This document shows positions 51,346-53,225 of a stretch of 64,000 bases of DNA, piece by piece (positions within the stretch are counted from its first letter, which is position 1; the number at the start of each line of letters is the position of its first letter). A model generated the notes under the pieces. The model ran no database searches and was not told where the DNA came from. It was given only the letters and a program-made list of their open reading frames with translations. Location of the stretch: assembly GCA_026003895.1 (NCBI GenBank), contig BPIC01000002.1, forward strand, positions 248,001 through 312,000. The letters run 5' to 3'. The stretch comes from Dehalococcoidia bacterium (GTDB lineage Bacteria; Chloroflexota; Dehalococcoidia; SpSt-223). Both the position numbers and the translations under genes were made by a program.

Positions 51346-53088
51346 ATGCTGCGGTTCCCAGAGTTCTTGACGCGTTTGGGCCCCCAGCGGCGTGAGGACG
51401 AGCCGCCGGTCGACGAGCCCGTTGTCGAGTCGTTGGAATCGTGTCCGACGTGCGGGGCTGACCTCACCGCTGACCCGGAGTATCGCCGGTTGCGCGTCTG
51501 CGGCGCGTGCCGGCGCCATTTCGCCCTTTCGGCGCGCGAGCGGGTGGAGCTACTCGCCGATCCAGCGACGTTTCGCGAGATCAATCGGAGCGTGCGGAGC
51601 GGAGATCCGCTTGCCTTCGCCGATAAGCTGCCCTACCGCGAGCGGCTCGTCGCCGCACAGCGCCGGACGGGGCTGGCCGAAGCCGTGCTGACGGGCATCT
51701 GTCGGATCGACGGCCGCACCGTCGTGCTGGGCGCCCTCGACTTCGAGTTTCTCGGCGGCTCGATGGGAGCGGCGACCGGCGAGAAGATTGCCCGCGCGTT
51801 CGAACAGGCAACCCGGGACAAGCTGCCCATCGTCTGGATCGTTACCAGCGGCGGAGCGCGGATGCAGGAAGGCATCCTCTCCTTGATGCAGATGGCGAAA
51901 ACGGTCGCGGCCGCCAAGCGTCACCATAGCGCCGGGCTGCCGTTCATTAGTGTGCTTACCAACCCGACCACGGGCGGAATTTACGCATCGTTTGCGAGCC
52001 TCGGCGACGTGACCCTTGCCGAGCCGGGTGCGCTTATCGGGTTCGCCGGCCCCCGCGTCATCGAGGGGACTCTCGGGCATCGTCTCCCGCCAGACGCCCA
52101 GCGACCGGAATTCCTGCTCCGCCACGGCCAGCTCGACCAAATCGTGGACCGGGCGAAGCTGCGGGGAATGCTGGCCCAATTGCTCACCTTGGTTGATTCT
52201 CCGTATCGGCTGACCGCGACGGAAGCGGCAGAAGTGTCGACCGTCGCGTCGCAGGCGGGAGAGACGGCGTGGGAGACCGTCCAACTGGCCCGGCACACGG
52301 GGCGGCCGACGACCTTGGACTACATCCGATTGATGACCACTGGCTTTGTGGAATTGCATGGCGATCGCGTGTTTGGTGACGACCCGGCGATTGTCGGCGG
52401 GCTTGCCGAGCTCGCCGGCCAGCCGGTCGTCATTCTCGGCCATGAACGCGGACACCCCGGTGATCCCATCGATCGGAACGAAGGCCGGGCGCGTCCCGAG
52501 GGGTACCGGAAAGCTCGCCGACTCATGCTGCTCGCCGCCAAGCTCCGGCTGCCGCTGGTGACGCTGATCGACACGCCCGGCGCGTATCCCGGCCTCGAGT
52601 CGGAAGAGCGCGGGCTGGCTGGCGCACTCGCGCTCTGCCTCGCGACGATGGTCGAGTTGCCGACGCCGATCGTCTCGGCGATCATCGGCGAAGGCGGAAG
52701 CGGTGGGGCGCTCGCGATCGGCGTTGCCGACCGCGTGTTGATGCAAGAGAACGCCATCTACTCAGTGATTGCGCCCGAAGGGGCGGCGGCAATCCTCTAT
52801 CACGACCCGTCGCGCGCGCAAGAGCTGGCGAGCGCACTTCGCATCACGGCGCGTGACTGCAAAGCGCTCGGTGTCGTCGACGGGCTTGTCTCCGAACCGG
52901 CGGGCGGTGCCCACCACGATCCTAACGCCGCGGCGCATCTCCTGAAGAGCGCGCTCGTTCACGAACTCGTCGACCTGCAGCGGCAATCCCTCGACAAGCT
53001 CCTCGCGCGCCGCTACAAGAAGTTTCGCAGCATGGGCGAGACGGTTTCGGCCGGCGGTCGGCACGAGGGTGCTTCTCGGTCCACCTGA
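51346..53088 (+). CDS. accDA: Acetyl-CoA carboxylase carboxyltransferase, AccD-AccA fusion
   Basis: This 580-residue protein joins both carboxyltransferase subunits in one chain. Residues 33-55 carry the AccD zinc finger (Cys33, Cys36, Cys52, Cys55), followed by the beta domain (S-G-G-A-R-M-Q-E-G, G-A-L-I-G-F-A-G-P-R). From about 310 the alpha domain runs: R-P-T-T-L-D-Y-I, G-D-R-x-F-G-D-D, D-T-P-G-A-Y-P-G-x-x-x-E-E-R-G and G-E-G-G-S-G-G-A-L-A-I. It moves CO2 from carboxybiotin to acetyl-CoA. The fusion enforces 1:1 stoichiometry. A tRNA gene follows 39 bases later. Confidence 0.95.
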   Translation: MLRFPEFLTRLGPQRREDEPPVDEPVVESLESCPTCGADLTADPEYRRLRVCGACRRHFALSARERVELLADPATFREINRSVRSGDPLAFADKLPYRERLVAAQRRTGLAEAVLTGICRIDGRTVVLGALDFEFLGGSMGAATGEKIARAFEQATRDKLPIVWIVTSGGARMQEGILSLMQMAKTVAAAKRHHSAGLPFISVLTNPTTGGIYASFASLGDVTLAEPGALIGFAGPRVIEGTLGHRLPPDAQRPEFLLRHGQLDQIVDRAKLRGMLAQLLTLVDSPYRLTATEAAEVSTVASQAGETAWETVQLARHTGRPTTLDYIRLMTTGFVELHGDRVFGDDPAIVGGLAELAGQPVVILGHERGHPGDPIDRNEGRARPEGYRKARRLMLLAAKLRLPLVTLIDTPGAYPGLESEERGLAGALALCLATMVELPTPIVSAIIGEGGSGGALAIGVADRVLMQENAIYSVIAPEGAAAILYHDPSRAQELASALRITARDCKALGVVDGLVSEPAGGAHHDPNAAAHLLKSALVHELVDLQRQSLDKLLARRYKKFRSMGETVSAGGRHEGASRST

Positions 53089-53127: not shown

Positions 53128-53225
53128 GGGAGCGGATGGGGCCCGGTGGCCCTCGCGGTCTTCAAAACCGTTGCCCGGCGGCCCGCGTCGTCGGGGGAGG
53201 GTTCGACTCCCTTGCGCTCTCGCCA
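53128..53225 (+). tRNA. selC: tRNA-Sec (anticodon TCA)
   Basis: This 98-base gene folds as a bacterial selenocysteine tRNA. The 8-bp-type acceptor GGGAGCGG pairs with GCGCTCTC (7 of 8 positions, one G-T wobble, a G/G mismatch at the inner pair). The six-bp D stem GGGGCC/GGCCCT has a four-base CGGT loop, as in E. coli tRNA-Sec. The anticodon arm is GCGGT-CTTCAAA-ACCGT, with TCA at 53162-53164. The variable arm pairs CCCGGCGG with the TCGTCGGG side. The T arm is GAGGG-TTCGACT-CCCTT, and G-CCA is encoded at the 3' end. Long variable arm, six-bp D stem and TCA anticodon together exclude tRNA-Ser or a suppressor. Confidence 0.93.

Follow-up and report, generated by a model that had tools for sequence, protein, structure and literature searches.

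In bacteria, the closest described counterpart of the tRNA-Sec reported here is E. coli SelC (RF01852), for which the pairs C7-G66, G49-U65 and C50-G64 are known to be recognised by SelB and to have EF-Tu rejected (PMC9976931). Deviating acceptor branches have been described before: the authors of Secmarker report 12-pair branches for several groups including Dehalogenimonas, and Dehalogenimonas lykanthroporepellens carries a 7/5 tRNA-Sec (PMC5330540). Within the Dehalococcoidia, a Sec-containing FdhA has been described for the SAG An-B22 (PMC5736913).

Here, we analysed a 64-kb stretch of Dehalococcoidia DNA (in the following the window) and the genome it belongs to, i.e., an assembly of 10 contigs with 80.5% completeness (G000). 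Given the sequence comparisons below, the element under study is almost certainly selC, i.e., the gene of a functional tRNA-Sec of a Sec system that would serve at least five genes (selD, Prx, SelL-like redoxin, AhpD-like and UGSC). We take it for an ordinary selenocysteine system of the bacterial type, in a new lineage of uncultured Chloroflexota. It has the phylum and the Sec decoding with tRNA-Sec in common with the earlier Dehalococcoidia systems. In contrast to SAG An-B22, no Sec-type formate dehydrogenase is found; the selenoproteome recovered consists of SelD and thiol-redox-type proteins. The acceptor strand comprises 8 nt with a mismatch compared to 7 nt in Dehalogenimonas lykanthroporepellens.

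With regard to E. coli SelC, the tRNA shares the UCA anticodon, the CUUCAAA loop, the six-pair D stem with its 4-nt D loop, the long variable arm, the 13-position acceptor and T branch, G73 and an encoded CCA. Differences concern the acceptor branch and the location. That is, the eighth acceptor pair is G-G instead of C7-G66 and the tenth is A-U instead of C50-G64, such that the lineage retains the G-U step at the ninth position next to a mismatch; the gene is found after accDA and not in a selAB operon.

Table 1. Features of the tRNA-Sec locus (window positions) and further genes with in-frame TGA (contig:position).
Feature	Position	Strand	Details
selC, tRNA-Sec gene	53128..53225	+	95-nt body + encoded CCA; ARAGORN, Rfam RF01852, 23-sequence covariation
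Anticodon TCA	53162..53164	+	reads UGA; loop CTTCAAA
Discriminator G73 + encoded CCA	53222..53225	+	CCA = 53223-53225
Eighth acceptor pair, 5' base G	53135	+	faces G at 53214 (G-G mismatch)
Eighth acceptor pair, 3' base G	53214	+	
accDA, fused acetyl-CoA carboxylase carboxyltransferase beta + alpha	51346..53088	+	39 bases upstream of tRNA-Sec
Peroxiredoxin (Prx)	C2:612397		one in-frame TGA, FTGGUTNEL
SelL-like redoxin	C3:211889		one in-frame TGA, YRGWWUPKC
AhpD-like CMD protein	C1:180306		one in-frame TGA, HGCASUNRSN
UGSC-family protein	C1:902715		one in-frame TGA, AVGDUATCTS

The tRNA-Sec and its acceptor branch

ARAGORN predicts a single tRNA within the whole window, namely the tRNA-Sec listed in Table 1. 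RF01852 matches positions 53128-53221 with 69.9 bits (E-value 1.5e-13 in a 3-kb search), far above 47, the gathering score of this family. Across the window, all other Rfam families stay below theirs. We thus observe a UCA anticodon together with an above-threshold covariance score. The initial annotation had proposed a 98-base tRNA-Sec at this place, with a six-bp D stem, a four-base loop, the anticodon loop of E. coli, a long variable arm and an encoded CCA, i.e., a combination found in no other tRNA class. Both the call and this anatomy are confirmed, where the variable arm comprises about nine pairs, and the statement about other tRNA classes holds. Two details have to be amended: the eighth acceptor pair is mismatched, and CCA is encoded in this genome but in neither of the two congeners (L044, L045). 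The tRNA-Sec of congener G002 is nearly identical to that of the window. Neither a sigma-70-like promoter nor an intrinsic terminator was found around the gene.

We also assessed the structure on an alignment of 23 sequences, i.e., the window's tRNA-Sec, those of the two congeners and 20 others of the same class. Using an 8/5 cloverleaf, standard pairs are present in 94.1% of the cells (D stem 100%, variable arm 98%). Changes on both sides occur in 20/34 cloverleaf pairs, compared to a mean of 11.9 for shuffled data, and none of 500 shuffles shows a value as high. When pairing partners are slid by 1-3 bases, the fraction of paired cells drops to 44-60%. The pairing signal is that of a conserved RNA and not a product of chance. 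Sequence conservation is also pronounced: all 23 sequences show the discriminator G73 and an invariant CTTCAA in the anticodon loop, which is extended to CTTCAAA in 22/23. The outermost possible pair of the anticodon stem (53154/53172; alignment columns 27 and 45) is C-U in 21/23 sequences and standard in only one.

The acceptor/T branch combines an 8-nt acceptor 3' strand with five T pairs. Its eighth pair is non-standard in 15/23 sequences, and G-G in 12/23 including the window. At the ninth pair, the window has G-U, which is found in 15/23 sequences. An alternative 9/4 fold with an A9-U86 pair was rejected, as G70 pairs with U/C86 in 23/23 sequences and A9 often faces C86. Departures of the acceptor branch as observed here are already known in kind. 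The G-G step at pair 8 is mildly unusual, and it is the one such feature of this tRNA-Sec. The mismatch in place of C-G might be the lineage's own means to keep EF-Tu out, SelA and SelB having adapted accordingly, which we consider possible but rather unlikely.

Genomic context and Sec machinery

The upstream neighbor accDA is identified by TIGR00515 (just below its cut-off) and TIGR00513 as well as by PF01039 and PF03255. Among named records, the closest accDA (80%) is that of a Chloroflexi MAG, HOT.Cluster.3, and some of the more distant matches carry the label Dehalococcoidia, in line with the class of the window. The tRNA-Sec is located 3' of accDA in all three members of the genus (congener loci L044 and L045). 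Within 1.5 kb, accDA is absent from all 20 further tRNA-Sec loci examined in the class; likewise, all of the 49 further accDA loci are without a tRNA-Sec. We therefore rejected a functional link between the two genes and regard the position 3' of accDA as neutral and specific to the genus. This agrees with the earlier statement that it is not a familiar sel locus. The location is also uninformative since the tRNA-Sec is found apart from selA/B/D in 18/20 other loci of the class and beside selB in only two; sel genes are generally scattered in the class. One relative (G020:C68; L031, L034) carries a pair of tRNA-Sec genes at a distance of about 4.4 kb, where selD and selB form a tandem and one of the two tRNA-Sec genes, on the opposite strand, immediately follows selB.

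A genome-wide search for selA, selB and selD, as suggested by the initial annotation, recovered two of the three genes. selA is found with 557 bits and selD with 403 bits, the latter of Sec type with one in-frame TGA in the context MDAHEQVRLTSLSHGAGUACKLG (HGAGUACK at the TGA), which we take to be the catalytic Cys/Sec position of SelD. No selB was found in the 80.5% complete assembly, i.e., all matches stay below the family cut-off and the best four candidates turned out on reading to be EF-Tu, IF-2, LepA and TypA. Both congeners encode selB with the SelB winged-helix domains, and proB is close by in each of them. Using the ProB of a congener as query, we obtained no match in G000, in a search run without positive control. 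ProB is a housekeeping enzyme; with the neighboring proB also unmatched, a missing stretch of the assembly is a better explanation than loss of selB. The absence of selB from G000 is thus likely an assembly gap, and the organism would possess SelB. Near selD (L049:3810-4800, G000:C3), a one-base shift at a G run interrupts a pdhB-like gene for an E1-beta dehydrogenase. This has the appearance of an indel from sequencing or assembly, and we rejected the break as a Sec codon given the frameshift.

To put these genes into context, we counted them in a sample of 60 genomes of the class, where a tRNA-Sec was considered present for RF01852 scores above 60 bits. tRNA-Sec, selB and selD are all present in 29/60 genomes and all absent from 22/60. 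The three tend to occur together (Fisher p-values from 2e-11 to 2e-9), with p-values of 2e-10 for tRNA-Sec with selD and 1e-9 for tRNA-Sec with selB.

Genes with in-frame TGA

Candidate selenoprotein genes were collected by family searches in which stops inside matches were counted, such that the resulting list is a lower bound (at least five genes). Beside selD, it contains the four genes from Table 1. The TGA position is conserved to the codon in all three genus genomes for the redoxin, the AhpD-like and the UGSC gene, and in two genomes (G000 and G002; FTGGUTNEL/FTSGUTNEL) for Prx. All stay open past the TGA with conserved protein sequence (e.g., Prx shows 87% identity to G002). Among the matches listed for the family searches and selD, interruptions are always TGA and never TAA or TAG. 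This is also reflected in the 60 class genomes, for which 36/37 SelD matches show exactly one in-frame TGA and none shows TAA or TAG. The sole TGA-free SelD (G032:C75:20468-21388) comes from a genome that lacks selB and any strong tRNA-Sec, and may serve another use of selenium, e.g., selenouridine.

The proteins correspond to known selenoprotein families, i.e., SelD, PrxU, SelL-related redoxin (NF040769), YciW-related/AhpD-like (NF053654) and UGSC (PF24696, NF041046), with the same domains and Sec at the redox-active position. When U is read as C, PF00578, PF02627 and PF24696 are matched above their cut-offs (87 bits for PF24696, UGSC). All but SelD score below the curated cut-offs of NCBIfam. 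The four genes are therefore likely truncated or missed in databases, and their products may go unrecognised as selenoproteins in automatic annotation.

The initial annotation had expected that some apparent stops of this genome may be Sec codons and that gene calls may be truncated, which holds given five genes with in-frame TGA; ordinary gene callers will truncate several genes of this organism. Its search list for UGA-containing genes fared less uniformly: SelD and Prx show the in-frame TGA, but formate dehydrogenase, its first candidate, does not, i.e., the molybdopterin matches in the three genus members are all open without TGA. SelW (Rdx) is found in 2/3 genus genomes, likewise without TGA. 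Within the window, no convincing read-through extension of the called genes was found; a short gene with UGA near its start could escape this search.

Hairpins resembling SECIS elements are predicted 3' of the TGA in most copies. For SelD, redoxin, AhpD and UGSC, they comprise 7-8 pairs with 3-nt loops and start about 10-27 nt after the UGA, while Prx shows a hairpin of different shape. Single-sequence z-scores are uneven (-2.9 to +1.1) and weak for several genes. Among the congeners, the seven-pair hairpins of AhpD and redoxin each show one compensatory pair, i.e., a change on both sides. Going by these predictions, the hairpins after UGA look like bacterial SECIS elements and may act as such.

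Alternative readings and implications

As in other bacteria, SerRS would charge the tRNA-Sec with serine, SelA would turn the Ser-tRNA into Sec-tRNA using selenophosphate from SelD, and SelB would bring the latter to UGA codons with a SECIS hairpin downstream. That Sec is inserted at UGA, as put forward by the initial annotation, is supported at the level of sequence by selA, the Sec-type selD and four more redox genes with conserved UGA.

With selB not found in the G000 assembly, one could instead picture a relic, i.e., a species that lost selB and no longer reads UGA as Sec, with selA, selC and the TGA genes decaying. We consider this very unlikely: the incompleteness of the assembly and the likewise unmatched proB point to a missing stretch, the genes are open and conserved beyond their TGA, and a decaying tRNA is at odds with near identity to that of G002. 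Even less credible, to the point of being negligible, is a UGA suppressor or a type-2 tRNA-Ser variant that carries UCA by chance. Such confusion is conceivable in principle since RF01852 gives 40-53 bits for many other, weaker tRNA-like matches in the same genomes, such that this model alone draws no sharp line between the classes near its threshold. The gene studied here scores 69.9 bits and combines an intact 8-nt 3' acceptor strand, the six-pair D stem with four-base loop and UCA; furthermore, its tRNA type is common to genomes with selB and Sec-type selD. A tRNA-Sec within a working Sec system hence remains our reading of the locus.

The accDA neighbor itself carries no message. The acceptor-branch mismatch offers a naturally occurring variant with which to test the discrimination of tRNA-Sec by SelB and EF-Tu. 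The Sec trait is found in about half of the 60 sampled genomes of the class, and the genes reported here would add at least five selenoprotein genes for an uncultured lineage of the Chloroflexota.
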